The position numbers and the translations under genes are program-made. From positions 1 through 64,000 of the forward strand of contig NZ_VIRM01000029.1 of the NCBI RefSeq assembly GCF_006874475.1: a stretch of 64,000 nt of DNA, in the 5' to 3' direction. Position 1 is the stretch's first letter; every line of letters starts with the position of its first letter. The notes under the pieces were generated by a model. It worked only from the letters and a program-made list of their open reading frames with translations, had not been told where the DNA came from and made no database searches. Shown in pieces: positions 10,785-61,140 of the stretch. This stretch comes from Microbispora hainanensis (GTDB lineage Bacteria; Actinomycetota; Actinomycetes; Streptosporangiales; Streptosporangiaceae).

Positions 10785-10791
10785 CCCCGAT

Positions 10792-13872: not shown

Positions 13873-13901
13873 ATTACGGCCGCCCCGCGCATACCCTCTT
13901 A

Positions 13902-18404: not shown

Positions 18405-18410
18405 CCGGCG

Positions 18411-35693: not shown

Positions 35694-36632
35694 TCACCTC
35701 GGCGGCTCCTCGTGGGGCCGCCGGGGCGGGGCCTTGCCGGTGTTCCTGAACAGCGATCGCATGGTCGCCAGCGCCGGAGACCTGTCGTCGGACCGCCAGG
35801 CCAGGCTGATCGTCCGGTGCAGGCCCGGCGGGGCGAGCCGCCGTACGCTGAGGGGGTTTTCGGCCAGGTCGGCCACGGTCCTCGGCACGAGGGCGAGGCC
35901 CATGCCCCCGCTGGCGAGGGCGCAGGACATGCCGTAGTTGCCCGTCTCGTACGCCACGATCGGCGGCGCCAGCCCCTCGCGGCGAAACAGCGCCTCGAGC
36001 GCCTCCCGGTTGGCCAGCCCGCGTGAACCGCTGATCAGCGGTCGTCCCGCGAGCTCGGGCCACGGCAGCGGCTCGGCCGGATCGGTGAGCGCGTGCCCGG
36101 GGGCGGCCACCAGCACCAGCTCCTCCACCAGCAGCGCCTCGACGGTGACCCCGGAGGGCAGCGTGGGCGCGGGCTGATGCTCGTAGGTGTGGGTGAGCAC
36201 GAGATCCGCCTCGCCCGTGGCCAGCGCGGGCAGCCCCGACGGGGGTTCGTACTCCCGCACATTCACCTCCACGGCGGGGTGAGCCCGCCGGAACGCCGCG
36301 AGGACCGGCGGTAACAGGTGGATTCCGGCGGTTGTGAAGGTGCCGATCGTGATGTGGCCGCCGGACAGGCCGGCGAGCGCGGACAGGCCGTGCCGGGCCC
36401 GTTCGAGCTCGTCGAGCACCCGCCGGGCGTGCTCCACCAGCAGCTCGCCCGCCGCCGTGAGCGTGGCGCCGCGGCGGTGCCGGATCACGAGGGTGGCTCC
36501 CGCCTCCCGCTCCAGCTTGGCGATCTGCTGCGACAGCGCGGGCGGCGTGTAGCCGAGGCGGGCCGCCGCCCGGGTGATCGAACCGGCTTCGGCGACCGCC
36601 ACCAGCGCCGCGAGCCGTGTCACGTCGTGCAT
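35694..36632 (-). CDS. LysR-family regulator, divergent from nitrosuccinate-type operon
   Basis: 312 residues. The HTH (LAALVAVAEAGSITRAAARL, then GYTPPALSQQIAKLERE) is followed by a type 2 periplasmic-binding ligand domain (HITIGTFTTAGIHLLPPVL). ATG 36632 matches the family start. It is transcribed away from the FAD-oxygenase operon (113 nt between starts), and the shared gap contains two AATGCTT-centred palindromes, so it is the likely regulator of that operon and of itself. Confidence 0.9.
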   Translation of the reverse strand: MHDVTRLAALVAVAEAGSITRAAARLGYTPPALSQQIAKLEREAGATLVIRHRRGATLTAAGELLVEHARRVLDELERARHGLSALAGLSGGHITIGTFTTAGIHLLPPVLAAFRRAHPAVEVNVREYEPPSGLPALATGEADLVLTHTYEHQPAPTLPSGVTVEALLVEELVLVAAPGHALTDPAEPLPWPELAGRPLISGSRGLANREALEALFRREGLAPPIVAYETGNYGMSCALASGGMGLALVPRTVADLAENPLSVRRLAPPGLHRTISLAWRSDDRSPALATMRSLFRNTGKAPPRRPHEEPPR

Positions 36633-36633
36633 G

Positions 36634-36686
36634 AAGCAATGCTTAACACCGCCTCGCCAAATGTGACATACCTCACGAATGCTTCG
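36634..36686. promoter_or_regulatory. Two palindromes between LysR and the FAD-oxygenase gene
   Basis: AAGCA-A-TGCTT (36634-36644) and CGAA-TGC-TTCG (36676-36686) both contain AATGCTT, 40 nt apart. The first abuts the LysR start codon. Paired sites four helical turns apart suit LysR tetramer binding (recognition and activation sites). Confidence 0.5.
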
Positions 36687-36745
36687 CTCCCGCATCCTCG
36701 TCTCACGACCTGATCGGAACTGCCCGAGGGGAACCGGAGGAGCGG

Positions 36746-38767
36746 ATGAACACGACGACACGATCGACCCGGACGTTCGAGGTGTGCGTGATCGGAGCGG
36801 GACCGCGCGGCATGTCGGTGATCGAGCGGCTGTGCGCCAACGCGCGGCGGCTGCCGCCGCGGGCACGCGTCCTGCTGCACGTCGTGGATCCGTACCCGCC
36901 GGGGGCGGGCCAGGTGTGGCGCACCGACCAGCCGGGCCAGCTCCTGATGAACACCGTCGCCTCCCAGGTCACGCTCTTCACCGACCCCAGCGTCGACATC
37001 CGGGGGCCGCTGGAGACCGGCCCGAGCCTGTACGAGTGGGCGCGCCACCTGGTGCTCTTCCCGGACGGCGTCGAGGAGCACGTGCTCGCCGAGGCGCGGC
37101 GGCTCGGGCCCGACATCTATCCCACCCGCGCCTTCTACGGCCGCTATCTGCGCTGGGTGTTCGAGCGGGTGGTCGCGCGGGCGCCCCGGCAGGTGGAGGT
37201 GCGGGTGCACGCCACCCGGGCGACCGCGCTCGACGACGTGCCCGGCACCGGCGCGCAGCGGGTGGTGCTTGAGGACGGCACCGTGCTCGGCTCGCTCGAC
37301 GCGGTGGTCCTGGCGCAGGGACACCTGCCGGTCGAGCCCACGGACGCCGAGCGGGAGGCCGCCGCGTACGCCGCCGCCCACAACCTGGTCCATGTGCCGC
37401 CCGCCAACCCGGCCGACGTCGACCTGAGCGACGTGCGTCCCGGGGAGGCGGTGCTGCTGCGCGGCCTCGGGCTCAACTTCTTCGACCACATGGCGCTGCT
37501 GACGATCGGGCGCGGCGGCCGGTTCGAGCGGGGTGAGGCGGGCCGCCTCGTCTACCGGCCCTCCGGCCACGAGCCCCGCCTGTACGCCGGATCACGCCGG
37601 GGCATCCCCTACCAGTCGCGGGGCGAGAACGAGAAGGGTGTCGAGGGCAGGCACGAGCCGCTGCTGCTCACGCCGGGCAGGATCGCGTCGCTGGCCGCGC
37701 GCTCGGCCGCCCGCGGCGGGCTCGACTTCCGCGCCGACCTGTGGCCGCTGATCGCCAAGGAGGTGGAGACCGTCTACTACGCCACCCTGCTGGCCCGGCG
37801 GGAGTGCGAGTGCATCGCCGGCCGCTTCCGCGCCGCGTACCTCGCCTGCTCCTGGGGCGACCCGGGGGAGGCCACGGTGCTCGACGCCTTCGGCATCGGC
37901 GAGGCGGTCCGGTGGGACTGGGAGAGCGTGGCCGAGCCCTACCGGGGCATCGGCTTCACCGGGCCGGACGACTGGCGCGAGTGGCTGACCGCCTATCTGC
38001 GCACCGACCTGACCCAGGCCCGCGCGGGCAACGTGAGCGGGCCGCTGAAGGCCGCCCTCGACGTGCTGCGCGACCTGCGCAACGAGGTCAGGCAGGTGGT
38101 CGACCACGGCGGGCTCACCGGGCGCTCCCACCGCGACGACCTCGACCGGTGGTACACGCCGCTCAACGCGTTCCTGTCCATCGGGCCGCCGGCCGAGCGG
38201 GTGGAGCAGATGATCGCGCTCATCGAGGCCGGTGTGCTCACCGTCATCGGTCCCGGCATGCGGGTGCACGCCCGCGACGGCGTCTTCGAGGCCGAGTCGG
38301 CCGCCGTGCCGGGCTCGGCCGTACGGGCCAGGGTGCTCGTCGAGGCGCGGCTGCCCGAGATCGACCTGCGGCGCACGGCCGACCCCCTGCTGCGTCACCT
38401 GCTGCGGACCGGCCAGTGCCGGGCGTACGTGATCGGCGGGCGGCGTGGCGACACCGGCTACGAGACGGGCGGTCTCGCGGTGACCCGCCGGCCCTACCGG
38501 CTGCTCGACGCGGACGGGCGGGCCCACCCGCGGCGGTTCGCGTACGGCGTGCCCACCGAGTCGGTCCACTGGGTGACGGCCGCGGGCGTGCGGCCGGGGG
38601 TGAACTCCGTGATCCTGGGCGACTCCGACGCCATCGCCCGCAGCGTGCTCACGCTGACGCCTGCCCGGGCCCTCCCGGCCCGCCGCCGCGTCGCGCACGT
38701 GGCCGCCGGACCCCGTACGGCTCTCGCCGCCTCCGCGTGCGGCGCGACCCGGGCGGGTGTGCGATGA
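36746..38767 (+). CDS. FAD/NAD(P)-binding monooxygenase, CreE/FzmM-like candidate
   Basis: 673 residues. The N-terminal PF13454-type Rossmann fold has GAGPRG (residues 17-22) followed by PPGAGQVWRTDQPGQLLMN. A second nucleotide motif and a C-terminal GGRRGDTGYETGGLAV follow. CreE (cremeomycin) and FzmM (fosfazinomycin) oxidise L-aspartate to nitrosuccinate and are paired with a fumarase-superfamily lyase, as here: the next gene overlaps by 4 nt. Family-level assignment to an FAD oxygenase is firm; the CreE/FzmM role rests on size, motif and gene pairing. The RBS GGAGGA precedes ATG 36746. It heads a three-gene operon. Confidence 0.72.
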   Translation: MNTTTRSTRTFEVCVIGAGPRGMSVIERLCANARRLPPRARVLLHVVDPYPPGAGQVWRTDQPGQLLMNTVASQVTLFTDPSVDIRGPLETGPSLYEWARHLVLFPDGVEEHVLAEARRLGPDIYPTRAFYGRYLRWVFERVVARAPRQVEVRVHATRATALDDVPGTGAQRVVLEDGTVLGSLDAVVLAQGHLPVEPTDAEREAAAYAAAHNLVHVPPANPADVDLSDVRPGEAVLLRGLGLNFFDHMALLTIGRGGRFERGEAGRLVYRPSGHEPRLYAGSRRGIPYQSRGENEKGVEGRHEPLLLTPGRIASLAARSAARGGLDFRADLWPLIAKEVETVYYATLLARRECECIAGRFRAAYLACSWGDPGEATVLDAFGIGEAVRWDWESVAEPYRGIGFTGPDDWREWLTAYLRTDLTQARAGNVSGPLKAALDVLRDLRNEVRQVVDHGGLTGRSHRDDLDRWYTPLNAFLSIGPPAERVEQMIALIEAGVLTVIGPGMRVHARDGVFEAESAAVPGSAVRARVLVEARLPEIDLRRTADPLLRHLLRTGQCRAYVIGGRRGDTGYETGGLAVTRRPYRLLDADGRAHPRRFAYGVPTESVHWVTAAGVRPGVNSVILGDSDAIARSVLTLTPARALPARRRVAHVAAGPRTALAASACGATRAGVR

Positions 38768-40143
38768 ACGAGCTGGATATGGGGTTGCTCTCCCCGGTCA
38801 GGGTGGGTTCGGCGGCGGAGCGGGCGACCGGCGACGGCGCGTGGCTGCGCGCGATGCTCGACGCGGAGGCCGCCCTGGTCCGCGCGCAGGCCCGGCTGGG
38901 CGTCGTCCCGGCGGAGGCCGCGGAGACGATCGGCAATGTGGCGGAGGCGGGCGCCCTCGACCTGGCGGCCCTGGCCCTGCGCGCCCGCGAGGCGGCCAAC
39001 CCGGTCGTGGCGCTGGTCGAGGACCTGACGGCGGCCGTGGCGGTGGTGGACCCGGCCGCGGCCGAATATGTGCACCGCGGCTCGACGAGCCAGGACATCA
39101 TGGACACGGCCGCCATGCTGGTGGCCGCGCGGACCCTGGGTCTGATCACCGCCGACCTCGATCGGGCCGCGACCGCGCTCGCGGGGCTCGCGGCACGGCA
39201 CCGCGACACGCTGATGCCGGGCCGCACGCTGACCCAGCAGGCGGTGCCCACGACGTTCGGCCTGAAGGCGGCCGGGTGGCTGCACGCCGTACGCGAGGCC
39301 GCGATCCGGCTGCGCCGGGTGCGCGCGGAGCTGCCCGCCGAGCTCGGCGGCGCGGCCGGCACGCTGGCGGGCTACGTGGAGTACGCACGGATGGCGGCAG
39401 TGCCCGACCCGGAGTCGTATCCGGAGCGGCTGATCGCGGCGTTCGCCGCCGAGGTGGGGCTGGCCGAGCCGATGGTCCCCTGGCACGTCCTGCGCGTTCC
39501 GGTCGCCGACCTCGCCGGGGCGCTGGCCCTCACCTCGGGGGTGCTCGGGAAGATCGCGGTGGACGTGCAGTCGCTGTCGCGCACCGAGGTGGCCGAGGTC
39601 GTGGAGCCGGCCGCCCCCGGCCGGGGCGTGTCGTCCGCGATGCCCCACAAGCGCAACCCGGTCCTCGCCACCCTCGTGCGGTCCGCGGCGATCCAGGTGC
39701 CCGCGCTCGCCGCGAGTCTCCACCAGTGCCTGCTCGCCGAGGACGAACGGCCCGCGGGCGCCTGGCACGCCGAGTGGCAGCCGCTGCGCGAGTGCCTGCG
39801 GCTGGTTGGCGGGGCCGCCGCCGTGACGGCCGAACTGGCCGAGGGACTGGTCGCCTTCCCCGAGCGCATGCGGGCCAACCTCACGCTCACCGGCAGCTTG
39901 ACCGTCACCGAACGGGCGGCGGCCGTACTCGCGCCGTTGTTGGGGAAGGTCGCCGCCAAGCGGCTGCTCGGGGAGGCGTCCGCGGAGGCCGCCGCGTCCG
40001 GGCGTCCCGTGGCCGAGGTGCTGGAGGAGCTCCTGCCCGTGCCCGAAGGGCTCGACCTGGCCCGGTTGTTCGACCCGGCCGATTACACGGGGGCCGCCGG
40101 AGCGCTCGTCGACCGCGTTCTACGCTGCTGTCCAGACGAGTGA
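38764..40143 (+). CDS. Fumarase/aspartase-superfamily lyase, CreD/FzmL-like nitrosuccinate lyase candidate
   Basis: 459 residues. The superfamily motifs are intact: HRGSTSQDIMDTA (His 104 region), TLTQQAVPTTFGLKAAG and the mobile catalytic loop GRGVSSAMPHKRNP (Ser 290/291). It resembles PcaB-type carboxymuconate cycloisomerase as well as CreD, which splits nitrosuccinate into fumarate and nitrite. No other pca genes are nearby, while the partner upstream is a CreE-like oxygenase (ATGA overlap), so nitrosuccinate lyase is preferred. The alternative is adenylosuccinate lyase-like enzyme of unknown substrate. Confidence 0.72.
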   Translation: MNELDMGLLSPVRVGSAAERATGDGAWLRAMLDAEAALVRAQARLGVVPAEAAETIGNVAEAGALDLAALALRAREAANPVVALVEDLTAAVAVVDPAAAEYVHRGSTSQDIMDTAAMLVAARTLGLITADLDRAATALAGLAARHRDTLMPGRTLTQQAVPTTFGLKAAGWLHAVREAAIRLRRVRAELPAELGGAAGTLAGYVEYARMAAVPDPESYPERLIAAFAAEVGLAEPMVPWHVLRVPVADLAGALALTSGVLGKIAVDVQSLSRTEVAEVVEPAAPGRGVSSAMPHKRNPVLATLVRSAAIQVPALAASLHQCLLAEDERPAGAWHAEWQPLRECLRLVGGAAAVTAELAEGLVAFPERMRANLTLTGSLTVTERAAAVLAPLLGKVAAKRLLGEASAEAAASGRPVAEVLEELLPVPEGLDLARLFDPADYTGAAGALVDRVLRCCPDE

Positions 40144-40152
40144 GGAGGTCCC

Positions 40153-41229
40153 GTGACCGGTCGCGCCCTTCCCTTCGGGCCGTCGAGCCCGATCATCCAG
40201 GCGCCCATGGCGGGCGGCGCCTCTACCCCGGCCCTGGCGGCGGCGGTGTCCGGGGCGGGCGGCCTCGGGTTCCTCGCGGCGGGTTACCGTACGGCGGAGG
40301 ACGTGCGCCGGGACATCGCGGCGGTGCGCGAGCGGACGGACCGGCCGTTCGGGGTGAACGTCTTCGTCCCCGATTTCGCGGCGCGGCGGGAGCCGGGTGA
40401 CGACGCGGCGGTGGCCCGCTATCGCGAGGAGCTCGCCCCCGAGGCCGAGCGGTACGGCGTGACGCTGCCGGAGGCCCCCGCCTGGGACGACGACGGGTGG
40501 GACGCCAAGATCGACGTGCTGGTGGACGAACGGGTGCCGGTGGCCTCCTTCACCTTCGGCTGCCCGCCGCCCGAGGTGACGGCCCGTCTCCACGACACGG
40601 GAGCCGTGATCATGGTCATGGTGAACACCCCGTGGGAGGCGGTCGCGGCGGCCGAGGCCGGCGCCGACGCGGTGGTGGTGCAGGGCCCCGGAGCGGGCGG
40701 GCACCAGGCGGCCTTCCTGGCCCCGCCACCGTCCTGGCCGAGCTCCTGGACGGCCCCGGACGACCTGCCGGAACTCGTGCGGCGCGTGCGCGAGGCGACC
40801 GGCGTGCCGATCGTCGCGGCCGGGGGGATCATGGACGGCGCGGACATCGCCGCCGTCCTCGCCGCGGGCGCGGTCGCCGCGCAACTGGGCACGGCGTTCC
40901 TGCGCACCCCGGAGAGCGGGGCGCACCCCGTGCACAAGGCCGCCCTCGCCGACCCCCGCTTCATCCGCACCGCGTTCACCCGGGCCTTCTCCGGACGTAC
41001 GGCGCGCGGCCTGGCCAACCGGTTCATGGCGGAGCACGAGGCGTCGGCGCCCGCGTACTACCCGCAGGTGCACCACCTGACGAAGGGCCTCCGCCGGGCG
41101 GCGGCCGAGCACGGCGACCCCGAGGCGATGGCGCTGTGGTGCGGCCACGGTTACCGCCGCTGCCGCGACCTCCCCGCCGCGGCCCTCGTCGGCACCCTCA
41201 TGAAGGAACTCGCGACCGCCCGCGCCTGA
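40153..41229 (+). CDS. Nitronate monooxygenase
   Basis: 358 residues, FMN TIM barrel of the 2-nitropropane dioxygenase family. Seen: IIQAPMAGGASTPALAAAV, GGLGFLAAGYRT, the active-site His 184 in QGPGAGGHQAAF, VPIVAAGGIMDG and AQLGTAFLRTPE. The enzyme oxidises toxic alkyl nitronates to carbonyls and nitrite. Placed 9 nt after the nitrosuccinate lyase-like gene (RBS GAGGAGGT overlapping its stop), it would suit clearing nitronates formed by that pathway and feeding more nitrite. Confidence 0.87.
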   Translation: MTGRALPFGPSSPIIQAPMAGGASTPALAAAVSGAGGLGFLAAGYRTAEDVRRDIAAVRERTDRPFGVNVFVPDFAARREPGDDAAVARYREELAPEAERYGVTLPEAPAWDDDGWDAKIDVLVDERVPVASFTFGCPPPEVTARLHDTGAVIMVMVNTPWEAVAAAEAGADAVVVQGPGAGGHQAAFLAPPPSWPSSWTAPDDLPELVRRVREATGVPIVAAGGIMDGADIAAVLAAGAVAAQLGTAFLRTPESGAHPVHKAALADPRFIRTAFTRAFSGRTARGLANRFMAEHEASAPAYYPQVHHLTKGLRRAAAEHGDPEAMALWCGHGYRRCRDLPAAALVGTLMKELATARA

Positions 41230-41238: not shown

Positions 41239-42162
41239 TCACAGCGTGACCACGATCTTGCCGTGGACGTGGCGTCCGGCCTGCAGCGTCACGGCGTCGC
41301 GGATCCGCTCGATCGGGAAGGTCGCGGCGATGGGCACGGTGATCGCGCCGGCGAGGACCGCGTCGGTGATCCGCTCCAGGTCGGCCGGGGTGGCCTGCTC
41401 GCCACCGGTCGCGCGTACGCCGCCGGGAGGGTTCGGGCCCGCGGCGATCGTGGAGATCCGCTCGGGCGGCACGCCGAGCGCGAGCGCCGCCTCGGCCGTC
41501 TCGGTGCCGAACAGGTCCGTCGCGGCGGTCACACCGCCGGGAGCCAGCGCCCGCACCCGATCGGCGAGCCCCGGGCCGTAGGTCACCGGCTCCGCGCCCA
41601 GTTGCCGCAGGAAATCGAACGTGCCCTCCGAGGCGGTCCCGATCACCCTGGCGCCCGCGAGCCGCGCGAGCTGTACGGCGAACACGCCGACGCCGCCGGC
41701 CGCGCCGCCGACCAGGAGGGTGTCGCCGGATCGCAGGCCGATCGCGTCCAGAGCGGCGGCGGCGGTCAGACCGGCCACCGGGAGCGTGGCCGCCACCTCG
41801 TCGCCGATGCCGTCCGGCGTGTGGAACAACGCGCCGGGCGTCGGAGCCTTCATCACCAGGAAGTCGGCGGCGGCCTTCGCCATCGCGCCTCCGTAGACGC
41901 GGTCGCCCACGGCGAAACCGTCGGCCCCTTCGCCGGCCTCGTCGACGACGCCGGCGAAGTCGTAGCCGAAGCCGGACGGCAGGGTGAGGCCGAACACCGT
42001 CGCCGCCTCGGGGGTCGAGGTGATGATCCAGTCCATCGGGTTCAGGCCGGCGGCCGTCACACGGACGCGTACCTCGCCCGGACCGGCGTGCGGCTCCGGA
42101 ACATCGCGCAGCTCCAGCACCTCGGGACCTCCGAACGTCTCGTAAACGACGGCTCGGCTCAT
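41239..42162 (-). CDS. Zinc-independent quinone oxidoreductase/alcohol dehydrogenase (MDR family)
   Basis: 307 residues. GroES-like N terminus (VRVRVTAAGLNPMDWIITST) and Rossmann domain with GDTLLVGGAAGGVGVFAVQL. The catalytic zinc ligands of alcohol dehydrogenases are absent, so it belongs to the NADPH:quinone reductase group. It is divergent from a TetR regulator with a clear operator in the 81-nt gap and is presumably repressed by it, inducible by an electrophile. Confidence 0.92.
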   Translation of the reverse strand: MSRAVVYETFGGPEVLELRDVPEPHAGPGEVRVRVTAAGLNPMDWIITSTPEAATVFGLTLPSGFGYDFAGVVDEAGEGADGFAVGDRVYGGAMAKAAADFLVMKAPTPGALFHTPDGIGDEVAATLPVAGLTAAAALDAIGLRSGDTLLVGGAAGGVGVFAVQLARLAGARVIGTASEGTFDFLRQLGAEPVTYGPGLADRVRALAPGGVTAATDLFGTETAEAALALGVPPERISTIAAGPNPPGGVRATGGEQATPADLERITDAVLAGAITVPIAATFPIERIRDAVTLQAGRHVHGKIVVTL

Positions 42163-42243: not shown

Positions 42244-42813
42244 ATGGCCCGCTGGCAGCCCAACGCATCGGAACGACTGATCCTCGCCGCCCTCGAACTC
42301 TTCGAGGAGCGGGGCTACGAGAACACGACCGTGATCGAGATCGCGGAGCGTGCCGGGCTGACGAAGAGCACCTTCTTCCGGCACTTCCCGGACAAGCGGG
42401 AAGTGCTCTTCGGCGGGGACACGATGGCCGGGCTGCTCGCCAAGGGCATCGCCGAGGCTCCCGCGACCGCCACGCCGTTGGACGCGGTGGCGCACGCTCT
42501 CGACGTGGTCGGGAAGGAGGTCTTCACCCCCGACCGCCGCGAATTCGCCGCCCGCAGGCTGGCGGTGATCGCCGCCCACCCTGAGCTGCAGGAACGCGAG
42601 GCGCTGAAGGGCCTCGGCCTCACCGCCTCGATGGCCGACGCGCTCACGCGGCGCGGAGTGCCCGGCCTGACCGCGTCCGTGGCCGCGCAACTGGGCGCGC
42701 TGGCCATGAAAATCGCCTACGAGCGCTGGAGCGCCACGACCGGCGGCGACGACTTCGGCGAGCTCGCCCGCCAGACGATCACCGACCTCCGCGCCGCCGG
42801 CACCCTGTGCTGA
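42244..42813 (+). CDS. TetR-family transcriptional regulator
   Basis: 189 residues. The HTH (RLILAALELFEERGYENTTV, then IAERAGLTKSTFFRHFPDKR) is typical. The ligand domain is unassigned. Divergent from the quinone oxidoreductase, with a shared operator, so it probably represses both and responds to a quinone or similar electrophile. Confidence 0.92.
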   Translation: MARWQPNASERLILAALELFEERGYENTTVIEIAERAGLTKSTFFRHFPDKREVLFGGDTMAGLLAKGIAEAPATATPLDAVAHALDVVGKEVFTPDRREFAARRLAVIAAHPELQEREALKGLGLTASMADALTRRGVPGLTASVAAQLGALAMKIAYERWSATTGGDDFGELARQTITDLRAAGTLC

Positions 42814-47308: not shown

Positions 47309-48652
47309 CTACATCCGCACGCCGGCGGTCTCCAGCAGGTGGATCCGTACGGCGTCCCGCACGCGCATCTCCAGCTCGTCCAGCTCGGCCGGGGTGGCCG
47401 CGTCGATGAGGAACGTCACCGCGCGGTCGTCGGAGCTGTGCAGCGGCCCGAGCTCGGCGCCGCGGTCCTTGAGCACGAGCACGGCGCGCAGCGTGGGCGG
47501 GTCGTCAGGGGCGCTCGGCTCGACCTCGGGCCACAGGCCGCCCTCGCCCACCCAGGCCGGTGAGACGCCCGGCCAGTCCACCGTGACGTCGCCGAGCCGT
47601 CCGGGCTCGTGCTCCAGGTAGACCTGGCGGGCGTACCGGCGCGGCGCGGGATAGGCCGCGGGCTCCCCGAGGGCGATGCGGATGATCTCCGGCTCCATCG
47701 GGGCGCCGGTCGCGAGCGAGTAGAGGATCGACAGGCCGTCGCCGGGAGTGCGCGCGGCCACCTCCATGAGACAGGGACGGCCCTCGCCGTCCACCCGCCA
47801 CTCGGCGTGCGCGATGCCGTCGGCGAAGGCCAGCCGTTCGAGCATGCGCCGGTTGGCGTCGAGGATGATCCGGTTCACGCCCTCCAGCTCGTTCGGCACC
47901 GAGTGGGACAGCTCGACGAAGGTGCGGGCGCCCGACTCGGTCGTCTCCTTGCGGGTCACCGAGGCGAACAGGACCCGGCCGTCCTGCACCAGGCTCTCCA
48001 CGGAGAATTCCTGGCCGGTCACCTTCTCCTCCACCAGCACCGTCTCGTGCGGCAGGTACGCGTCGAGCTGGGCGCGCAGCTCGGCGGCGTCGTGCACGGT
48101 CTCCACACCCGAGCTGGAGTGCCGGCTCGCGGGCTTGACCACGGCGGGGAACGACACGCCGTCGGCGGTGAACGCGGCGCGCCCGGCCGCGGGGACGACC
48201 ACAGAGGCCGGGCTGAACTCCGGCAGATACCACCGCTGCAGATACTTGCTGCGGCAGGCGCGGGTGGCCCGCAGGCCGGGGGAGGGCAGCCCGAGAGCGT
48301 CGGCGACCAGGCCGGTCGGCTCGACCAGGGTCTCGCCGACCGCGTAGACGCCGGTGATGTCGTAGCGGTCCCGCCACGCCCGTACGCCGGAGATCACGCC
48401 GGCGGTGAACGAGTTGTCGGTGTTGACGTCGCCGTCGGTGAAGGCGATCTCCTCGATGACCGAGGCCGGGTGCGCCGGGTCGCGCATCTGGGCCAGGGCC
48501 TGCTCCCGCCAGGAGGCCGGCGTGACCACGAGGATCTTGAGCCCCCGGCGGGACAGTTCGCGCAGATAAAGAGGGGCCCGGCAGATCACCAGGAATGATC
48601 CGGTAAGTACGAATGCTCGAGGTTTCACTTTCGCCACCGCCGTTTCTCGCAC
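47309..48652 (-). CDS. ATP-grasp ligase (amino-acid ligase type)
   Basis: 447 residues. ATP-grasp fold: an N-terminal Rossmann-like lobe (PRAFVLTGSFLVICRAPLYL), the ATP-binding FPAVVKPASRHSSSGVETV, ETVLVEEKVTGQEFSVES, and the metal-binding LMEVAARTPGD. It makes an amide or peptide bond via an acyl phosphate; the family includes BacD-type dipeptide and carnosine synthase-like enzymes. Start uncertain (GTG 48652, 48637 or 48628). It is divergent from the papB-papA-papC genes, and its closest functional link is the second ATP-grasp gene at 61141. Confidence 0.85.
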   Translation of the reverse strand: MRETAVAKVKPRAFVLTGSFLVICRAPLYLRELSRRGLKILVVTPASWREQALAQMRDPAHPASVIEEIAFTDGDVNTDNSFTAGVISGVRAWRDRYDITGVYAVGETLVEPTGLVADALGLPSPGLRATRACRSKYLQRWYLPEFSPASVVVPAAGRAAFTADGVSFPAVVKPASRHSSSGVETVHDAAELRAQLDAYLPHETVLVEEKVTGQEFSVESLVQDGRVLFASVTRKETTESGARTFVELSHSVPNELEGVNRIILDANRRMLERLAFADGIAHAEWRVDGEGRPCLMEVAARTPGDGLSILYSLATGAPMEPEIIRIALGEPAAYPAPRRYARQVYLEHEPGRLGDVTVDWPGVSPAWVGEGGLWPEVEPSAPDDPPTLRAVLVLKDRGAELGPLHSSDDRAVTFLIDAATPAELDELEMRVRDAVRIHLLETAGVRM

Positions 48653-48730: not shown

Positions 48731-48939
48731 TGACCGGTTTCCCGATAGGGGTGGACCGGGGTCGCCGGCCACCCGCTGCCTGCCCTGCCTCGGGGTTCCG
48801 AGAAGTCCGAGGTCGTCCTGGATTGTCCGGCCGCGCTGTGGGGCCGTTAGGGGTTGTGAGAAATGTGCGCCCGACCGAATCCTGAATTCGTCCCGACAGG
48901 GCCGGAACATCCGTGAACCCCCGATTGGAGGGCTGTTCA

Positions 48940-51379
<2,440 letters not shown>

Positions 51380-51381: not shown

Positions 51382-52593
51382 ATGACCCGCGGGGACCACA
51401 CGACGGCCGGGGACCGCCCGACGGCGGACCACGCGGACCACGCGGACCACGCGGACCGTGGGGACCACGGGGACACGGGCCTGCTGCGGCGCTGCGTCGT
51501 CGTCGGCGGCGCGGGCGCCGTGGGCGGCCTGTTCGCCGGGCACCTGCTGCGGTCCGGCGCCGAGGTGCTCGTCGTCGACCCCGCGCCCGGCCCAGCCACC
51601 GCCACCGCCACCGGCACCGGCACCGGCACCGGCACCGAGGCAGGGACCACCCCCACCCGGTCCGTGCCGGCCGTGAACGTCGCCTCGCAGGAATCCACGG
51701 CCGGGAGCCCCGCCGGGGCTCCTCCGGCCGGTGAGGCGAGGGTCCTGCGGGGCGACATCACGGACATCGGGCCCGAGCTCGCCGAAGAGCTCGGGCGGGC
51801 CGACCTGGTCCTGCTCGCGGTGCCCGAGCAGGTGGCGCTGACGGCGGTGAAGCAGGTGGCCGCGGCGATGCGGCCGGGCGCGCTGCTCGCCGACACGCTC
51901 TCGGTCAAGGGCCCGATCGCCGACGAGATCCTGGCCCACGCCGGGGACGTCGAGGCGGCCGGCCTCAACCCGATGTTCGCCCCGTCGCTCGGCTTCGCGG
52001 GGCGGCCGGTCGCCGCGGTCGTGGTCCACGACGGTCCCCGCACCCAGGCGCTGCTGCGGCTGGTCGAGAGCTGGGGCGGCCGTACCGTACGGCTCGGCGC
52101 GCACGAGCACGACCGGCTGGCCGCGGCGACGCAGGCGCTCACCCACGCGGCGGTGCTGTCGTTCGGGCTGGCGCTGGCCGGCCTCGGCGTCGGCGTCGCC
52201 GAACTGGCCGCCGTCGCCCCGCCGCCCCACGCCACGATGCTCGCGCTGCTGGCCCGGATCGCCTCGGGCACCCCGGAGGTCTACTGGGACGTCCAGTCGG
52301 CCAACCCGCAGGCCGCCGCCGCCCGCGCGGCGCTGGCCGACGGCGTGCGCACGCTCGCCGGCCTCCTCGACGGCCGGGCGGACGGGGAGGCGAACGGGGA
52401 GGCAGAGTTCGCGGCGGCCCTGGGCGGGCTGCGCGACCTCCTCGGCCCCGATCTCGGCTTCTACCGCGACACCTGCGCCGTGATGTTCGGCGCGCTGCCC
52501 TCCTACGAGCCCCGATCCTCCTACGAGCCCCGATCCCCCCACCAGCCCGGCCCCACCACGAGCACCTCATCTCCCGCCACTACCGAAAGGTGA
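51382..52593 (+). CDS. papC: Prephenate-dehydrogenase-like enzyme (PapC)
   Basis: 403 residues. NAD(P) motif [20 protein letters not shown], then [24 protein letters not shown] and [16 protein letters not shown], all of the prephenate dehydrogenase family. In the pap pathway it decarboxylates and oxidises 4-amino-4-deoxyprephenate to p-aminophenylpyruvate. Unusual low-complexity insertions are present: an ADH/ADR-repeat N terminus, an AT/GT repeat loop after the Rossmann fold, and a repeated SYEPRS tail. They do not break the motifs. ATG 51382 lies 2 nt after the papA stop. Confidence 0.83.
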
Positions 52594-52598
52594 GATCG

Positions 52599-54290
52599 AT
52601 GACCATCTCCATCTCCCACGAGACCGTCCTCACGACGGAGCAGCGCGCCAGGTTCGCCGCGGACCCCGACCTCGGCGGCGGCAACCTGCTGACGAAGGCC
52701 ATCGAGGCCAACCCCCACCCGGAGCTGCCGTTCATCCACCTGGGCAGGCCGCTGACCAACACCAAGGGCGAGCAGCAGACCGAGTGGAGCCTGCTGGAGC
52801 TGGACGAGCTGGCCCAGAGCTGGTCGGTGTGGTATCTGCGCCAGGGCGTGCGGCCCCGCGACCGCGTGGCCATCTACCTGGAGGACTCCTTCGCCTACTC
52901 CCTGCACTTCTACGCGCTGGCCCAGATCGGCGCGGTCGCGGTGCTGGTCAACAGCAAGGCCTCGCGCTACATCGCCACCGAGCTGTGCCGCCAGACCAAC
53001 CCGGTCGGCATGTACACCGACCTCGCCCACCTGGAGATCCTCGGCGAGGAGTTCCACCTGCTGCCCGGCCTGCGGTGGACGCAGGTGGCCGAGGAGCTGC
53101 CCGCGCCCCCGGCGGCGAAGCTGCCGCAGGAGGCCCGCTTCCGCCACGTCGGCGAGGACCCGGTCTCGATCCTGCACTCGTCCGGCACCACCGGGCGGCC
53201 CAAGCCGGTCATCCAGACCCACCGCTCGTGCGTGGCCGGTCCCCGGTTCCGTCTCGTGGACCACCACGAGCAGCCGGGCGCCGTGATGATGACCGCGCTG
53301 CCGCAGTCGCACCTCGGCTGCATCGCCTACACGACGTACGCCGTGCTCGGCGGCACGCCGATCGTGCCCTGGTTCGACACGAGCGGTCCCGAGCTGGCCA
53401 AGGCCGTCGAGAAGTACCGCCCGACGACCGTCATGGCCTTCGGCCACGCGTACGCCGAGCTGGCCGCCGCGGACCTGCCGGCCGGGGCGATCGACTCGGT
53501 CAACGTCTGGATCTCCATCGGCGACGCGGTCCACGAGAAGCACATCAAGGGCATCCTGGCCAAGCGCGACTCCTCGCTGCCGCCGGCCGCGTTCTTCGAC
53601 CGTCTCGGCACCACCGAGCTGGGCTGGGGCGTGCTGCTGAAGGTCCGTACGCTCGCCGACGAGCGCAACGACCGCTGCGTGGGCAAGCCGGTCGGCGTCG
53701 CCGAGGTCGCCGTGCTGCGCAGGGACGGCACGATCGCCGAGGTCAACGAGGTCGGGCTGCTCGGCGCGAAGGGCCCGGCGATCACCGCCGGATACTGGAG
53801 CGACTCCGACACGACCTACCGCAGCAAGCTGTCGGGCTACTGGCTGACCGGCGACATGGCCTACCGCGACGAGGCGGGCAACTACTTCCAGGTCGACCGG
53901 GCGGTGGACGCGATCGAGACCCCGACCGGCACCGGCTACTCGGTCTTCATGGAGGAGCTGCTGCTCAACGAGCTGCCCGAGGTCCTCGACTGCGCCGTGG
54001 TGGCGGGCATCCACCGCGGCCGCACGGTCCCGGTGGCGGTCGTGACGTCCAGCGCCGAGAGGCCGGACGCGCAGAGGCTGCTCAACGAGGCGAACGAGAA
54101 GCTGAAGGCCGCCGGTCACCCCGAGCTGACCATGCTGGAGGTCGCGCGGAACGAGGAGGACTTCCCGGTCGGCGTCACCGGCAAGGTCCTCAAGCGCCGG
54201 CTGCGGGAGAAGTACAGCTCGCTGTCCACCTATATCCGTGAGAACGGCGGCAAGACGCTCGGCACGATCCTCAACGACGTCTTCGTCTGA
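52599..54290 (+). CDS. ANL-superfamily ATP-dependent ligase/adenylating enzyme
   Basis: 563 residues. ATP P-loop SSGTTGRPKPV (about 194-204), GTTELGWGV, the adenylation YWLTGDMAYRD and the C-terminal catalytic Lys 529 (GVTGKVLKR) are intact. It activates a carboxylate (or, in CreM-like members, nitrite for diazotisation) with ATP. No CoA-specific or carrier-protein partner is evident. It follows papC by 5 nt (RBS AAGG overlapping the papC stop), so it acts on a product of the p-aminophenylalanine branch. Substrate cannot be told from the sequence alone. Confidence 0.85.
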   Translation: MTISISHETVLTTEQRARFAADPDLGGGNLLTKAIEANPHPELPFIHLGRPLTNTKGEQQTEWSLLELDELAQSWSVWYLRQGVRPRDRVAIYLEDSFAYSLHFYALAQIGAVAVLVNSKASRYIATELCRQTNPVGMYTDLAHLEILGEEFHLLPGLRWTQVAEELPAPPAAKLPQEARFRHVGEDPVSILHSSGTTGRPKPVIQTHRSCVAGPRFRLVDHHEQPGAVMMTALPQSHLGCIAYTTYAVLGGTPIVPWFDTSGPELAKAVEKYRPTTVMAFGHAYAELAAADLPAGAIDSVNVWISIGDAVHEKHIKGILAKRDSSLPPAAFFDRLGTTELGWGVLLKVRTLADERNDRCVGKPVGVAEVAVLRRDGTIAEVNEVGLLGAKGPAITAGYWSDSDTTYRSKLSGYWLTGDMAYRDEAGNYFQVDRAVDAIETPTGTGYSVFMEELLLNELPEVLDCAVVAGIHRGRTVPVAVVTSSAERPDAQRLLNEANEKLKAAGHPELTMLEVARNEEDFPVGVTGKVLKRRLREKYSSLSTYIRENGGKTLGTILNDVFV

Positions 54291-54481: not shown

Positions 54482-54516
54482 ACGAAGACCCGACCACATG
54501 GATGTGGAGGACTCCC

Positions 54517-55599
54517 ATGACCGACGCCGAGCTGTTGCTGGTGTTCGACTCGACGATCGATCCGTCCGGCATCGCCGGATGGGCCCAGCACTTCGACTCC
54601 ACCGGCACCACGGCCACGACGTACCGGCTGGGCGGGGCGCACGTGATGGTCGCCCAGGGGCCCGGCGCCCTGCTGCCCCTCCCGGCCGACCTGCCCGGGC
54701 CCCGGCAGACGGCGCGGGCGAGCGGCGGCTTCCGGCTCGGCCGGCGTGAGCTGTTCCCCTCGGGCACGGCCGTGACCATCGGCTCCGCGGTGATCGGGGA
54801 CGGGGACATCGCCGTCTTCGCCGGACCCTGCGCCGTCGAGAACCCCGGGCAGATGATGTCCACGGCCGGGGCCGTCGCCCGGCACGGCGCGGTCGGCCTG
54901 CGCGGCGGCGCGTTCAAGCCGCGCACCACGCCCTACTCCTTCCAGGGCCTCAAGTGGGCGGGCCTCGACCTGCTGGTGCGGGCCAGGGAGGAGACCGGCC
55001 TGCCGATCCTCACCGAGGTGGTCGACCCCCGGCACGTCGATCGGATGGCCGAGGTGGTCGACGGCTTCCAGATCGGCACCCGCAACATGCAGAACTTCGA
55101 GCTGCTGACCGAGGTGGGCCGCAGCGGCATGCCGGCCGTGCTCAAGCGCGGCTTCGGCTGCACGGTCGACGAGCTGCTCACCGCCGCCGAGTATCTCCTG
55201 GCGGAGGGCAACAACCAGGTCGTGCTGTGCGAGCGGGGGATCAGGACGTTCGAGGGGGCCACCCGCTTCACGCTCGACCTGTCGGCGGTGGCGCTGCTCA
55301 AGCGGCGCACCCACCTGCCGGTGATGGTCGACCCCAGCCACTCCCTCGGCATCCCCGAGCTCATCGAGCCGCTCACGCTGGCCGCCGTCGCGGCGGGCGC
55401 GGACGCCCTGCTGATCGACGTGCACGTCCAGCCCGACCAGGCGCTGTGCGACGGCAAGCAGGCGCTGCTCCCCGAGGACTTCGCCCGGCTGATGAGCCGC
55501 CTGGAGATGCTCGCGCTCGGCGTCGGCCGCCGGCTGGCCCCGGCCCCGGCCGCCGACTACTCCGAGATCCACGACGCCCTCACCTCCGACGTCGTCTAG
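54517..55599 (+). CDS. 3-deoxy-7-phosphoheptulonate (DAHP) synthase, class I beta type
   Basis: 360 residues. An N-terminal ferredoxin-like regulatory domain (VFDSTIDPSGIAGWAQHF, GGAHVMVAQGPG) precedes the barrel: FAGPCAVEN, GLRGGAFKPRTTPYSFQGL, VLKRGFGCTV, LPVMVDPSHSLG. It condenses PEP and erythrose-4-phosphate at the entry of the shikimate pathway, so it boosts chorismate for papA. ATG 54517 has GGAGG 6 nt upstream. A duplicated DAHP synthase inside a pap cluster is typical of pathways that divert chorismate. Confidence 0.92.
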   Translation: MTDAELLLVFDSTIDPSGIAGWAQHFDSTGTTATTYRLGGAHVMVAQGPGALLPLPADLPGPRQTARASGGFRLGRRELFPSGTAVTIGSAVIGDGDIAVFAGPCAVENPGQMMSTAGAVARHGAVGLRGGAFKPRTTPYSFQGLKWAGLDLLVRAREETGLPILTEVVDPRHVDRMAEVVDGFQIGTRNMQNFELLTEVGRSGMPAVLKRGFGCTVDELLTAAEYLLAEGNNQVVLCERGIRTFEGATRFTLDLSAVALLKRRTHLPVMVDPSHSLGIPELIEPLTLAAVAAGADALLIDVHVQPDQALCDGKQALLPEDFARLMSRLEMLALGVGRRLAPAPAADYSEIHDALTSDVV

Positions 55600-55632: not shown

Positions 55633-57833
<2,201 letters not shown>

Positions 57834-57837
<4 letters not shown>

Positions 57838-59312
57838 CTACCAGGGTGGTGATCGCCGGCTACGGCATGGCCGGCGCCCGGCTGGCGGAGGAGATCCGCC
57901 GCCGTGATCCGGCGGGAGAGCGCGTCGCGATCGTCGCGATCGGCGACGAGCCGCACCTGCCGTACAACCGGGTCCTGCTGTCGAACGTGCTGGCGGGCGC
58001 GATGTCCGCCGCGTCGGTGCGGCTGCAGGAGGAGGGCTGGGCCGCCGCGCACGGCGTCGAGGTGCACCGGGGCCGCGAGGTCGTCTCGCTCGACCGCGCC
58101 GGGCGCGGCGTCACGCTGGACGACGGCACGCGGGTCGGCTACGACGTGCTCGTGCTGGCGACCGGCGCGCGTGCGTGGGTGCCGCCCGTGGAAGGGCTGA
58201 CCGGCGACGACGGCGGGCTCGCCCCCGGCGTGGCGACGTTCCGCACGCTGGACGACTGCGCCGCGATCACGGCCGGAACGCGCGGCGGCGTGCGGGTGGC
58301 CGTGCTCGGCGGCGGCCTGCTCGGCCTGGAGGCGGCGCGGGGCCTGGCGGAGCGCGGCAACGCGGTCACCGTCGTCCATCCGCGCCGCCACCTGATGGAG
58401 CGCCAGCTCGACGACGGCGCGGGCGAGGTGCTCGCCCAGGTCCTGCGCGGCCTCGGCGTGCGGGTGCTGGTGAACTCGCGCGCGGCCCGCTACCTGCCCG
58501 GCGACGGGCTGAAGCTGGACGACGGCCGGCTGGTCGAGGCCGACCTCGTCGTCGTGGCGGCGGGGGTGCGTCCGCAGACGGCGCAGGCGTCGGCCGCCGG
58601 GCTCGCCGTCGACGGCGGCGTGCTGGTGGACGACGACCTGCGCACGAACGACCCGCTGATCCACGCCATCGGCGACTGCGCCCGGCATCCCGGCACGGTC
58701 ACCGGCCTGGTGCAGCCCGCCTGGGAGCAGGCCGCCGCGCTGGCCGCGCTGCTCACCGGCACCCGCTCGCCCTACCGCGGCACGAAGGTGGTGACCCGGC
58801 TCAAGGCGAACGGGGTGGACCTGGCCGCGCTCGGCGACGTGCACGCCGGGCCGGACGACCCGCGCGCCGAGGTGCTGTGGCTCAGCGAGCCGGCCCGGGG
58901 CCGCTACGCGAAGCTCGTCGTCCGCGACGAGCGGGTCGCGGGAGCCATCGCGCTCGGCGTGCCCGACGCCGCCGCCACGATCACCCAGTTCTACGACCGC
59001 GGCCTGCCCGTGCCGCCCGACCGGCTCGCGCTGCTGCTCGGCCGGGCCATGCCGTACGGCGAGGGCGGGGCGCCCGGCGGCGGCGACGCGGCGGCGCTGC
59101 CGGAGACGAGCGTGGTGTGCCGCTGCAACGCGGTCAGCAAGAACACGCTGGTCGCCGCGTGGCGGTCCGGAGCCCGCGACCTGACCGCCCTCGCCTCGGC
59201 CACCCGGGCGACCACCGGCTGCGGCACCTGCACCGACACCGTGTGCGGCATCGCCCGCTGGCTGGCCCGGGCCGACAAGGAGGAAGCCGCGGGGGTGGCG
59301 CATGCCCGATGA
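57834..59312 (+). CDS. FAD-dependent electron-transfer protein with BFD-like [2Fe-2S] domain (NasB-like)
   Basis: 492 residues. N-terminal FAD motif VVIAGYGMAGARLAEEI, PYNRVLLS, second NAD(P) motif VAVLGGGLLGLEAARGL, and FAD-contact ATGARAWVPP / IHAIGDCARHPG of pyridine nucleotide-disulfide oxidoreductases. The C terminus has a BFD-like Fe-S domain (CRCNAVSKNTL, TTGCGTCTDTVC). This is the layout of NasB and of the N-terminal part of NirB, which pass electrons from NAD(P)H to nitrate reductase. The siroheme domain of NirB is absent. GTG 57834 overlaps the nitrate reductase stop. Confidence 0.87.
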
Positions 59313-59345: not shown

Positions 59346-60839
59346 ATGAGCGAGACCACGGCGGCCGCCCGGCGCGGCCGCGGCTGGATCGAACACTGGA
59401 ACCCGGAGGACGAGGAGTTCTGGGAGACCACCGGCCGCAGGGTGGCACGGCGCAACCTGATCTTCTCGGTCTTCACCGAGCACCTGGGTTTCGCGATCTG
59501 GGTGCTGTGGTCGGTGGTGGTGCTGAGCCTGCCCGCCGCCGGGCTGCCGATGAGCGTGTCGGAGTCGTTCTGGCTCGTCTCCGCGCCCAACCTGGTCGGC
59601 GCGGCGATCCGGATCCCGTACACGTTCGCGGTGCCGCGCTTCGGCGGCCGGTTGTGGACGGTGATGTCGGCGGCGCTGCTGCTGGTGCCGTCATCGCTGC
59701 TGGCGTTCGTCGTGCCGAGCGGGTGGCTGGCCGCGCAGGACCACGACACGACGTTCTGGATCCTGCTCGCCTGCGCCGCCGTGGCGGGCGTCGGCGGCGG
59801 CAACTTCTCCTCCTCGATGGCGAACATCTCGTTCTTCTATCCGGAGCGGCGCAAGGGCTTCGCGCTCGGCCTCAACGCGGCCGGCGGCAACCTCGGCGTC
59901 GCCGTCGTCCAGCTCCTGGTGCCGCTGGTGGTCGTCGCCGGCGTGCCCGTGGCGGCGTCGGGCACACAGGTCCACCTCGCGTACGCCGGGCTCATCTGGA
60001 TGCCGTTCATCGTGATCGCCGCGCTCGGCGCCTGGCTGTTCATGGACAGCCTGGCCGAGGCCAAGGCCGACCCCCGGTCGTACGCCTCGGCGCTGCGGCA
60101 CGGGCAGACCTGGGTCGTGTCGCTGCTCTACATCGGCACGTTCGGCTCGTTCATCGGGTTCTCCTTCGCGCTGCCGCTGGTGATCAGGACGACGTTCCCG
60201 GAGTTCCTGGCCCAGCATCCGTTCATCCGCGACTACCTCGCCGGGCTGGGCTTCGTCGGGGCGCTGGTCGGCTCCGTCGCCCGTCCGCTCGGGGGCCGGC
60301 TGTCCGACCGGTGCGGCGGGGCCCGGGTCACGCTGGCCGTCTTCGCCGGGATGGTGGCGGCGACGGTCGCGGCGGCGGGCGGGGTGATCCGTCACGACTT
60401 CGGCCTGTTCTTCTGCTCCTACCTGGTCGTCTTCGCCTGCTCCGGGGTGGGCAACGGCTCGACGTACCGGATGATCCCGGTGATCTTCGGCGAGCTGGGG
60501 CGCAGGGAGGCGGCCATGCGCGGTCTCGACCCGGCGCTGACCGCGCCGGACTACAAGCGCAAGGCGGCGGCCGTGATCGGCATCGCCGGGGCGATCGGCG
60601 CGTTCGGCGGGTTCCTGATCCAGCAGGTGTTCCGCCTGGCGAGCACCGAGGCGGCGAGCGCGATGAAAGGCGTGACCGGCGCCGCGGCGGCCCGCGTCGC
60701 CCAGGAGCACGCGGGCTGGTCGCTGCCCGCCCTGTGGATCTTCGTCGGTTCCTACGTGCTGCTCGCCGGGCTCACGTGGTGGACCTACCTGCGGCGCGGG
60801 CCGAGCCGCGCGCCGAGCTTCGCCTACGCCCGGGTGTGA
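59346..60839 (+). CDS. narK: NarK-family nitrate/nitrite MFS transporter
   Basis: 497 residues, 12 transmembrane segments. The two nitrate-signature loops are present: GVGGGNFSSSMANISFFYPE and CSGVGNGSTYRMIP. The Arg residues that bind nitrate lie in ARRNLIFSVFTEH and KRKAAAVIGIAGA regions. It imports nitrate or exports nitrite. It follows the NasB-like gene by 33 nt, giving a complete nitrate uptake and reduction-to-nitrite set, without a siroheme nitrite reductase in the window. Confidence 0.93.
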   Translation: MSETTAAARRGRGWIEHWNPEDEEFWETTGRRVARRNLIFSVFTEHLGFAIWVLWSVVVLSLPAAGLPMSVSESFWLVSAPNLVGAAIRIPYTFAVPRFGGRLWTVMSAALLLVPSSLLAFVVPSGWLAAQDHDTTFWILLACAAVAGVGGGNFSSSMANISFFYPERRKGFALGLNAAGGNLGVAVVQLLVPLVVVAGVPVAASGTQVHLAYAGLIWMPFIVIAALGAWLFMDSLAEAKADPRSYASALRHGQTWVVSLLYIGTFGSFIGFSFALPLVIRTTFPEFLAQHPFIRDYLAGLGFVGALVGSVARPLGGRLSDRCGGARVTLAVFAGMVAATVAAAGGVIRHDFGLFFCSYLVVFACSGVGNGSTYRMIPVIFGELGRREAAMRGLDPALTAPDYKRKAAAVIGIAGAIGAFGGFLIQQVFRLASTEAASAMKGVTGAAAARVAQEHAGWSLPALWIFVGSYVLLAGLTWWTYLRRGPSRAPSFAYARV

Positions 60840-60997
60840 ATTTTCGTAGCACCCCGGCGTAACCAAAGTTGTAGGCCGTCTGCCTCTTACGTCATCCGGC
60901 CTGGTCATTAGGGTGCGCGGCCGTTGTGGCGGCCATACGCGCGTGCCAGCGTGCTGGTCAGAGGGCCCGCGAAACGGTTCACCCGGGAGGGATTTCG

Positions 60998-61093: not shown

Positions 61094-61140
61094 CCTATCC
61101 GCTGAACACCCGCGTCCAGGAGAAAGAAGGGAGGGACCCG

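Follow-up and report, generated by a model that had tools for sequence, protein, structure and literature searches.

A predicted nitrosuccinate operon with a putative nitronate monooxygenase in Microbispora hainanensis and its probable link to a diazotase-like enzyme 11 kb downstream

What does an operon that would make nitrite serve, when its immediate neighbours offer nothing to use the nitrite? The question is raised by three genes at positions 36,746–41,229 of a 64,000-nucleotide stretch of Microbispora hainanensis (contig NZ_VIRM01000029.1; hereafter the window), which encode a predicted L-aspartate N-oxygenase, a predicted nitrosuccinate lyase and a putative nitronate monooxygenase (NMO). 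The genome carrying the window is 8.7 Mb, and its closest named relatives are Microbispora. Aspartate-nitrosuccinate (ANS) pairs occur widely, many of them as orphans; the pair in the window is tied to a specific diazotase-like enzyme and to arylamine-type genes. The tie rests on their joint occurrence, on gains or losses that coincide and on a cluster that they share in another family, and it leads to a testable product class, namely aryl diazo compounds, or products of diazotization, derived from 4-amino-phenyl precursors. We read the three genes, with good but incomplete confidence, as an ANS nitrite generator joined by a repair enzyme, its nitrite being destined for an AvaA6-like diazotase encoded 11 kb downstream. 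The gene identities, clade memberships, co-occurrence and shared gain or loss described below come from sequence comparison.

The first gene product is well supported as an L-aspartate N-oxygenase of the FzmM/CreE type, with L-Asp as its predicted substrate. PF13454 spans residues 15–193 (E=3.7e-43), and 8cp2/8cp5 (phmmer, 729.7 bits, E=3.8e-218, residues 12–637) alone in the PDB gives a match up to E=10. 8cp2 is the L-aspartate N-hydroxylase of Streptomyces sp. V2, 54% identical to FzmM (PMC10404684; here and below, cited papers are represented by part of their text). The Asp-site residues listed in that source, with their numbering checked on the 8cp2 chain, are R13, W51, N62, R266, R276, R409, R412, N413, R416 and R577, and all ten are present in the window oxygenase; R13, R276, N413, R416 and R577 among them line the L-Asp entry chamber. 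They are kept in 96–97 of the 97 rows with at least 55% identity, in a comparison that omitted short rows and nine duplicate loci. Of 24 rows at greater distance, 3 retain N413, 7 retain R409 and 8 retain R276; R13, W51, N62 and R577 mostly persist there as well. The window protein thus shares with 8CP2/FzmM all reported entry-chamber residues, the N62/W51 flavin-site residues and similarity over the full length, but it has 673 residues against 601 in the crystallised chain. The window protein retains the peripheral arginine R593 but has a threonine for R597, as do most relatives. This replacement weighs against the assignment; R597 is not family-defining, however, because it is an arginine in just 3 of the 97 near rows. 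In a tree of 35 oxygenase loci and 8cp2, which stood in for CreE and FzmM, 26 rows including 8cp2 and the window fall on one side of a 98/97 branch. The first-pass annotation had proposed a CreE/FzmM-type enzyme, and the grouping with the solved L-Asp N-hydroxylase, not away from it, bears this out. The Asp-site residues also argue against PcxL, a 2-aminoethylphosphonate N-oxygenase.

Whether the second gene encodes a nitrosuccinate lyase (CreD/FzmL) or the related 3-carboxymuconate cycloisomerase PcaB is a closer call, and the sequence supports the former. The protein matches Lyase_1 (E=8e-37) and scores 703.7 bits against the nitrosuccinate lyase model NF052556 (cut-off 650), which the PcaB of the same genome fails at 488.6. 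Its best PDB match is CreD (5xny, 524.9 bits), with PcaB 1re5 at 249.4. In a FastTree analysis of 103 sequences, 83 oxygenase-linked lyases and CreD form one clade that holds 0 of 17 PcaG-linked rows (support 0.64); 32 locus identifiers had been left out as duplicates or short overlaps, rows below 120 bits or 300 residues were dropped, and the 83 include L143, a second copy of the window's own lyase gene. An IQ-TREE analysis of 41 rows (23 of the 84 ANS-side rows and all 18 PcaB-side rows) gives the same CreD/PcaB split with 97/94 support, in 98% of bootstrap trees. Leu170, a Trp in 1re5, agrees with CreD. The five-residue fingerprint E49/H118/D125/H253/R341 (taken from PMC13411527) and the SSxMPxKRNP loop are present, but the five do not discriminate, because PcaB 1re5 carries them too.

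A cycloisomerase in an operon for aromatic degradation would account for several observations that weigh against a nitrosuccinate lyase: the protein narrowly passes the PcaB model TIGR02426 (365.9 against a cut-off of 355.75), it shares 62% identity over 369 residues with the PcaB of the same genome, the divergent LysR regulator weakly matches PcaQ among family models, and an approximately unbiased test does not reject a grouping of the Microbispora lyases with the PcaBs of the genus (p=0.265). Yet the true PcaB sits elsewhere in the genome in a separate pobA-pcaG-pcaB operon, after PobA-like and PcaG-like genes, NF052556 separates the two proteins, the tree places the window lyase with CreD and the oxygenase-linked lyases, and the gene overlaps that of the Asp N-oxygenase. 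We regard a role in aromatic catabolism as extremely improbable and rejected it, the p-value above notwithstanding. An adenylosuccinate lyase was likewise rejected, with NF006500 and TIGR00928 far under their cut-offs. The expectation of the first-pass annotation that the lyase would cluster away from PcaB is borne out by the trees; its remark that other protocatechuate genes are absent is true locally, but the genome as a whole does hold them.

The predicted layout of the operon proved exact in its coordinates, in the 4-nt overlap of oxygenase and lyase, in the 9-nt gap before the NMO gene and in the divergent LysR gene (Table 1). A GGAGGA stretch lies upstream of the oxygenase ATG. The order LysR, oxygenase, lyase, NMO is kept in 6 of 6 named Microbispora loci, where the oxygenase is 80–95% identical to that of the window. 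The three operon genes look to be under purifying selection, with ratios of nonsynonymous to synonymous change of 0.28 (oxygenase), 0.23 (lyase) and 0.27 (NMO) in a simple count of the window against M. corallina only. This apparent selection and the constant order argue that the set is not a chance association. Two largely conserved blocks between the LysR and oxygenase genes may be regulatory; a repeat search of the same region gave weak inverted repeats alone, and a promoter and terminator scan gave 0 and 0 sites.

Why should an NMO be the third member? The protein matches PF03060 (E=1.9e-96), with 3bw2 and 4q4k as its top PDB matches. For a class I NMO the active site is described as Met, Asn, His, Tyr and Lys (PMC11510023), and the window enzyme has the corresponding M19, N69, H184, Y303 and K311, as mapped through the P. 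aeruginosa enzyme PaNMO (4q4k). One class I tyrosine is a His in a quarter of sequences (PMC11510023), and we take His307 of the window to be that position. The site of the window enzyme is thus that of class I NMOs such as PaNMO and 3bw2 of S. ansochromogenes, but it shares its operon with an ANS pair. The Lys is replaced by Ser in 3bw2 and in the NMO of locus L011, and the NMOs of the 3bw2 group stand apart from ANS pairs in the loci examined. A reason for the partnership is offered by the chemistry of nitrosuccinate, which decarboxylates to nitropropanoate within minutes with the nitronate as a transient intermediate; propionate-3-nitronate inhibits both aspartase and fumarase strongly and competitively (PMC13411527), and NMO enzymes release nitrite from the conjugate base of 3-nitropropionate (PMC9552603). 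Hence, an NMO beside an ANS pair would both remove a poison and return nitrogen. We infer that the window NMO destroys propionate-3-nitronate leaking from nitrosuccinate and gives back its nitrogen as nitrite or nitrate. This suggests an answer to an open question of enzymology, how a producer handles the nitronate when nitrosuccinate escapes the lyase; if true, the operon would be a compact, self-protected nitrite source useful for biocatalysis.

The association was followed in named ANS loci, the best 80 of 361 relatives of the oxygenase. A lyase lies within 3 kb of the oxygenase in 69 of them (one of the other 11 is at a contig end), and an NMO lies within the examined flanks in 7, namely the six Microbispora loci and L011, an uncultured actinobacterial metagenome-assembled genome in which the NMO gene is convergent and follows the lyase; none was found in 17 wider loci from further genomes, 13 of them with a lyase. 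The NMO tree keeps L011 separate from Microbispora, with no support for its own placement. The two associations likely arose separately; a single shared origin was rejected on their different places in the tree, with this same reservation.

That the NMO is instead a passenger, or another FMN enzyme such as a quinone or enoyl reductase, we consider unlikely, although this alternative carries real weight. NMOs 55–58% identical occur one per genome in 11 listed genomes of another family (f5), away from ANS pairs in the loci examined; these genomes are probably Streptomyces, because their NMOs group with 3bw2. The enzyme also has a weak FabK match (144 against a cut-off of 453). Three further points count against a dedicated repair role: genome G076 keeps the NMO without the ANS pair, M. 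corallina has Ser and G076 has Gly in place of Asn69, so that the class I set is not constant, and the stretches examined of three related clusters of another family (G382, G893 and G1068, below) yielded no NMO. Nevertheless, the class I set is present in the window enzyme, the NMO is third in the operon in every intact Microbispora island examined, and an NMO of apparently different lineage stands beside the ANS pair of L011.

The spontaneous decarboxylation also raises the alternative that 3-nitropropionate itself is the end product of the oxygenase, with the lyase and NMO protecting the producer. The oxygenase studied in PMC10404684, acting alone, gave 3-nitropropionate as its sole product, and 10 of the 80 named loci have an oxygenase without a lyase within 3 kb, the contig-end case not being counted. 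Both downstream enzymes, however, would remove the compound or its precursor, and the link to the diazotase described next also speaks against it; this alternative is very improbable.

The first-pass annotation noted no diazo-forming partner adjacent. This holds for the immediate neighbours, but it overlooked a diazotase-like protein of the ANL superfamily, whose gene lies 11 kb downstream in a cluster with arylamine-type genes (Table 1). NF058622 (AvaA6) is its best family by 212 bits (361.6 bits; next family 149), yet the score lies far below the equivalog cut-off of 975, which tells against a strict equation with AvaA6; hence we call the protein AvaA6-like only. The M. corallina orthologue scores 362 against the same model, and 6 of 7 homologues from ANS loci of other organisms score 342–505, the seventh (L022) giving no match. 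Among the genes scanned at 47.3–62.4 kb there is no 3-amino-4-hydroxybenzoate (3,4-AHBA) synthase gene, no ketosynthase–chain length factor (KS-CLF) and no match to a dedicated aminotransferase; pap-type, ATP-grasp, nas-type and transport genes are found instead. We take one of the reductases to be NasB-like and one of the transporters to be NarK-like; no siroheme nitrite reductase domain was matched in the NasB-like protein.

The evidence for a link between the operon and the diazotase comes from their distribution. Ten of 15 Microbispora genomes have the diazotase (92–100% identity), and these are precisely those with the orthologous oxygenase (79–100%); the LysR orthologue (86–100%) occurs in the same ten, and the NMO in these and G076. 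The orthologous oxygenase and the diazotase are both missing in G065, G070, G076, G077 and G078. More distant oxygenases occur twice in G070 (41% and 38%) and once in G068 (43%). In 9 of the 10 genomes the diazotase and NMO genes are 9.4–17.5 kb apart on one contig, and in G071 they lie on separate contigs. In a tree built from four core proteins of the flanks (14 rows, excluding G069; by its coordinates, L002 seems to be G074), M. corallina has the set, the next branch (G065, G077 and G078) is without it, and the main clade has it. The presence of pair and diazotase needs at least two changes on this tree, as forced by its starred branches, and G076, without either, would add a further one.

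A second line of evidence comes from another family, in which the diazotase is found at 60–61% identity in 3 of 401 genomes (G382, G893 and G1068). In all three, homologues of PapB, PabAB, PapC, the diazotase, the ATP-grasp ligase, DAHP synthase, the oxygenase and the lyase follow in this order on one strand; the order in G382 was read across two stretches, and G893 has other genes between PabAB and PapC. Genes for a major facilitator superfamily (MFS) protein and an aminotransferase-fold protein are also in the G1068 cluster and, by inspection, in G382. The aminotransferase-fold gene lies between PapC and the diazotase (L217, 18095–19321, by inspection; L250, 8022–9269, PF00155). Since this gene was not seen in the Microbispora cluster, the clusters of the other family suggest a related but different product.

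Within Microbispora the operon is an island set in a core region of the chromosome. About 204–216 bp separate the matched parts of the Rv2466c-like and ROK genes on its two sides in G065, G077 and G078, and in module-bearing genomes the LysR, oxygenase, lyase and NMO genes lie between these flanks. In G070 neither the module nor the same flank was found in the stretch examined. G076 (810 contigs; this contig 3.7 kb) has the NMO gene between the same flanks (L111, G076:C215, 1702–2769) with the last ~55 bases of the lyase gene left, which looks like a 4.4-kb loss of the LysR, oxygenase and lyase genes, if not an assembly error. The Rv2466c-like gene encodes a mycothiol-dependent nitroreductase (PF22234; 35031–35678) and adjoins the island; it is probably a core gene outside the system, because it is found in all 15 Microbispora genomes searched.

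This arrangement bears on whether the operon is a stand-alone generator of nitrite (or NO) for signalling, competition or nitrogen turnover, with the diazotase cluster as a coincidental neighbour. The island has its own LysR gene, and the core ROK and F5/8-type genes separate it from the diazotase cluster, which weighs against the link; ROK is retained in the three empty genomes, and the F5/8-type gene in G077, the one examined. ANS pairs outside clusters have also been published (PMC11429834, PMC11705231), among them CreD/CreE homologues in several Streptomyces (PMC11429834), so that such a location is not new in itself. Also unfavourable to the link, six other genomes of the order (G212, G205, G291, G292, G027 and G293) have a diazotase 60–67% identical with, at most, one fragment of an ANS oxygenase; diazotase and ANS oxygenase are thus not obligate partners. 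One of the six, G027, has pap-like genes and DAHP synthase, and in the other five no further cluster gene above 34% identity was found within the 12–19.5 kb examined. Against a coincidental neighbourhood, the presence of oxygenase and diazotase agrees in 15 of 15 Microbispora genomes, the two changing together, and in G382, G893 and G1068 their homologues lie in a single cluster. An entirely isolated nitrite operon was rejected on this co-occurrence, and we find the stand-alone alternative distinctly improbable. Because the diazotase and arylamine-type genes co-occur with it, the operon is probably not a stand-alone nitrite operon.

Diazotase homologues are not confined to these clusters: within the examined flanks of the 80 named ANS loci, one scores at least 100 bits in 40 and at least 200 bits in 18. 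By inspection, the homologue in Actinokineospora loci lies among ketosynthase-like and carrier-protein-like genes, as in the ava and cma clusters. Three of these loci (L008, L009 and L012; oxygenase at ~10001–11920) have a 64–66% Asp N-oxygenase homologue in a cluster with ketosynthase-like, carrier-protein-like and AvaA6-like genes, and no lyase match within 10 kb, so nitrosuccinate would have no adjacent lyase there. In L022 (Streptomyces sp. RPT161, 10001–19478) the oxygenase and lyase genes are followed directly by NarK-like, NasC-like (66%) and NirB-like genes, with a PabAB homologue ~8 kb upstream.

How might operon and cluster work together? What the enzymes catalyse, which arylamine they use, how the steps are ordered and what is finally made are all inferred, as follows. 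The oxygenase, with FAD, NADPH and O2, would oxidise L-Asp three times to nitrosuccinate, and the lyase would eliminate nitrite, leaving fumarate. Nitrosuccinate that escapes may decarboxylate spontaneously to propionate-3-nitronate/3-nitropropionate, from which the NMO would form a semialdehyde and nitrite or nitrate. The diazotase would then activate nitrite with ATP and diazotise a chorismate-derived arylamine made by the DAHP synthase, PabAB, PapB-like and PapC-like enzymes; the simplest candidates are 4-aminophenylpyruvate and 4-aminophenylalanine, an identity that we presume from the pap-type genes. The ATP-grasp ligases might finally join the product to another amino acid, and the NasC/NasB-like/NarK-like set may be a second nitrite source. 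The full scheme, an aryl-diazonium pathway with such an amine, a divergent ANL diazotase, two sources of nitrite (Asp through ANS and nitrate through NasC) and a dedicated NMO that repairs the leak and recovers nitrite, is a tentative proposal that falls somewhat short of probable.

The second source could also be the main one, with the nitrate reductase of its own cluster feeding the diazotase and the ANS operon as a back-up for nitrate-poor soil. The NasC-like and NasB-like genes come directly after DAHP synthase and lack a matched siroheme nitrite reductase domain, the ANS pair of L022 likewise stands beside NarK-like, NasC-like and NirB-like genes, and nitrate-derived nitrogen has been argued for alanosine (PMC11705231). 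The three clusters of the other family, however, have the ANS pair and no Nas matches in the stretches examined, and we hold a mainly nitrate-fed diazotase to be improbable. In alanosine clusters with nitrate and nitrite reductase genes the same two sources, ANS or nitrate reductase, are debated, and the reductases may supply nitrogen (PMC11705231); the window differs in having both in one co-inherited set, together with an aryl-type diazotase homologue.

Neither the ANS pair nor the ANL diazotase is new in kind: ANL-type diazotases supplied by ANS have been described (PMC10777205, PMC11705231), as have many orphan clusters with ANS genes (PMC10777205). As in the cremeomycin, avenalumic acid and p-coumaric acid clusters (CreE-CreD-CreM, AvaE-AvaD-AvaA6 and CmaE-CmaD-CmaA6), an Asp N-oxygenase and a nitrosuccinate lyase would provide nitrite for an ANL diazotase acting on an arylamine. 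Those clusters have 3,4-AHBA synthase genes, whereas the window has PabAB, PapB-like, PapC-like and DAHP synthase genes; it adds ATP-grasp ligases, a nitrate reductase set and an NMO within the ANS operon, and its LysR-flanked ANS island lies apart from the diazotase. Among the papers listed in searches of the open-access literature we found no report of an NMO in an ANS operon, of a PabAB/Pap-type diazotase cluster or of a related diazo compound from Microbispora, and the terms 'aminodeoxychorismate' and 'ATP-grasp' are absent from the main text of a compilation of diazo clusters (PMC13061610).

Table 1. Genes and intergenic region of the island, its accessory genes and the downstream cluster, in positions of the window
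Feature	Position	Strand	Length and basis
LysR-family regulator	35694..36632	-	312 residues, start 36632; LysR family matches; divergent from operon
LysR/oxygenase intergenic region	36633..36745	.	two largely conserved blocks around ATGAAGCAATGCTTAACAC and GACATACCT in an alignment of 7 Microbispora sequences
Predicted L-aspartate N-oxygenase (nitrosuccinate synthase, CreE/FzmM type)	36746..38767	+	673 residues; PF13454, 8cp2 (phmmer), Asp-site residues, tree
Predicted nitrosuccinate lyase (CreD/FzmL type)	38764..40143	+	459 residues; NF052556, CreD 5xny, tree
Putative class I-type NMO	40153..41229	+	358 residues, GTG start; PF03060, 3bw2 and 4q4k matches, active-site residues
Quinone-reductase-like oxidoreductase, accessory	41239..42162 (start approximate)	-	family matches; also in G073
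TetR regulator, accessory	42244..42813	+	also in G073
ATP-grasp ligase	47309..48652	-	59–61% homologue in ANS clusters of G382, G893, G1068
Chorismate mutase-like protein (PapB-like)	48913..49248	+	PF01817; TIGR01803 102.5 bits, cut-off 73.35
Fused aminodeoxychorismate synthase (PabAB/PapA-like)	49232..51379	+	TIGR00553 353.3 bits, cut-off 328.4
Prephenate dehydrogenase-like protein (PapC-like)	51382..52593	+	PF02153 30.8 bits, cut-off 26.5
AvaA6-like ANL-superfamily diazotase-like enzyme	52590..54290	+	566 residues; NF058622 best NCBIfam
DAHP synthase I-type protein	54502..55599 (start 54502 or 54517)	+	PF00793; 61–63% homologue next to oxygenase in G382, G893, G1068
NasC-like molybdopterin nitrate reductase	55633..57837	+	NF047855 ranks first among families at 724.2 bits, below its cut-off of 1100
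NasB-like FAD/BFD reductase	57834..59312	+	TIGR02374 positions 1–466 of 794 (N-terminal NirB part), Pfam domains
MFS transporter, NarK-like (name not based on a family model)	59346..60839	+	PF07690; 45% homologue after ANS lyase in L022
Second ATP-grasp ligase (L-amino acid ligase type)	60913..62376	+	LAL_C2, ATP-grasp_4
Transporter-like protein (MFS by inspection)	62373..63695	+	kept with cluster in G066, G068, G071, G073, the four examined

The quinone-reductase-like gene that follows the operon was not seen at the corresponding place in the six named Microbispora loci, and no tRNA was found in the 64-kb window. Among the further loci, an unusual gene set was seen by inspection at G000:C172:96000-112000 (L174), where a fumarase/aspartase-superfamily protein is encoded beside AIR-synthase-like, radical-SAM-like and carbamate-kinase-like genes.

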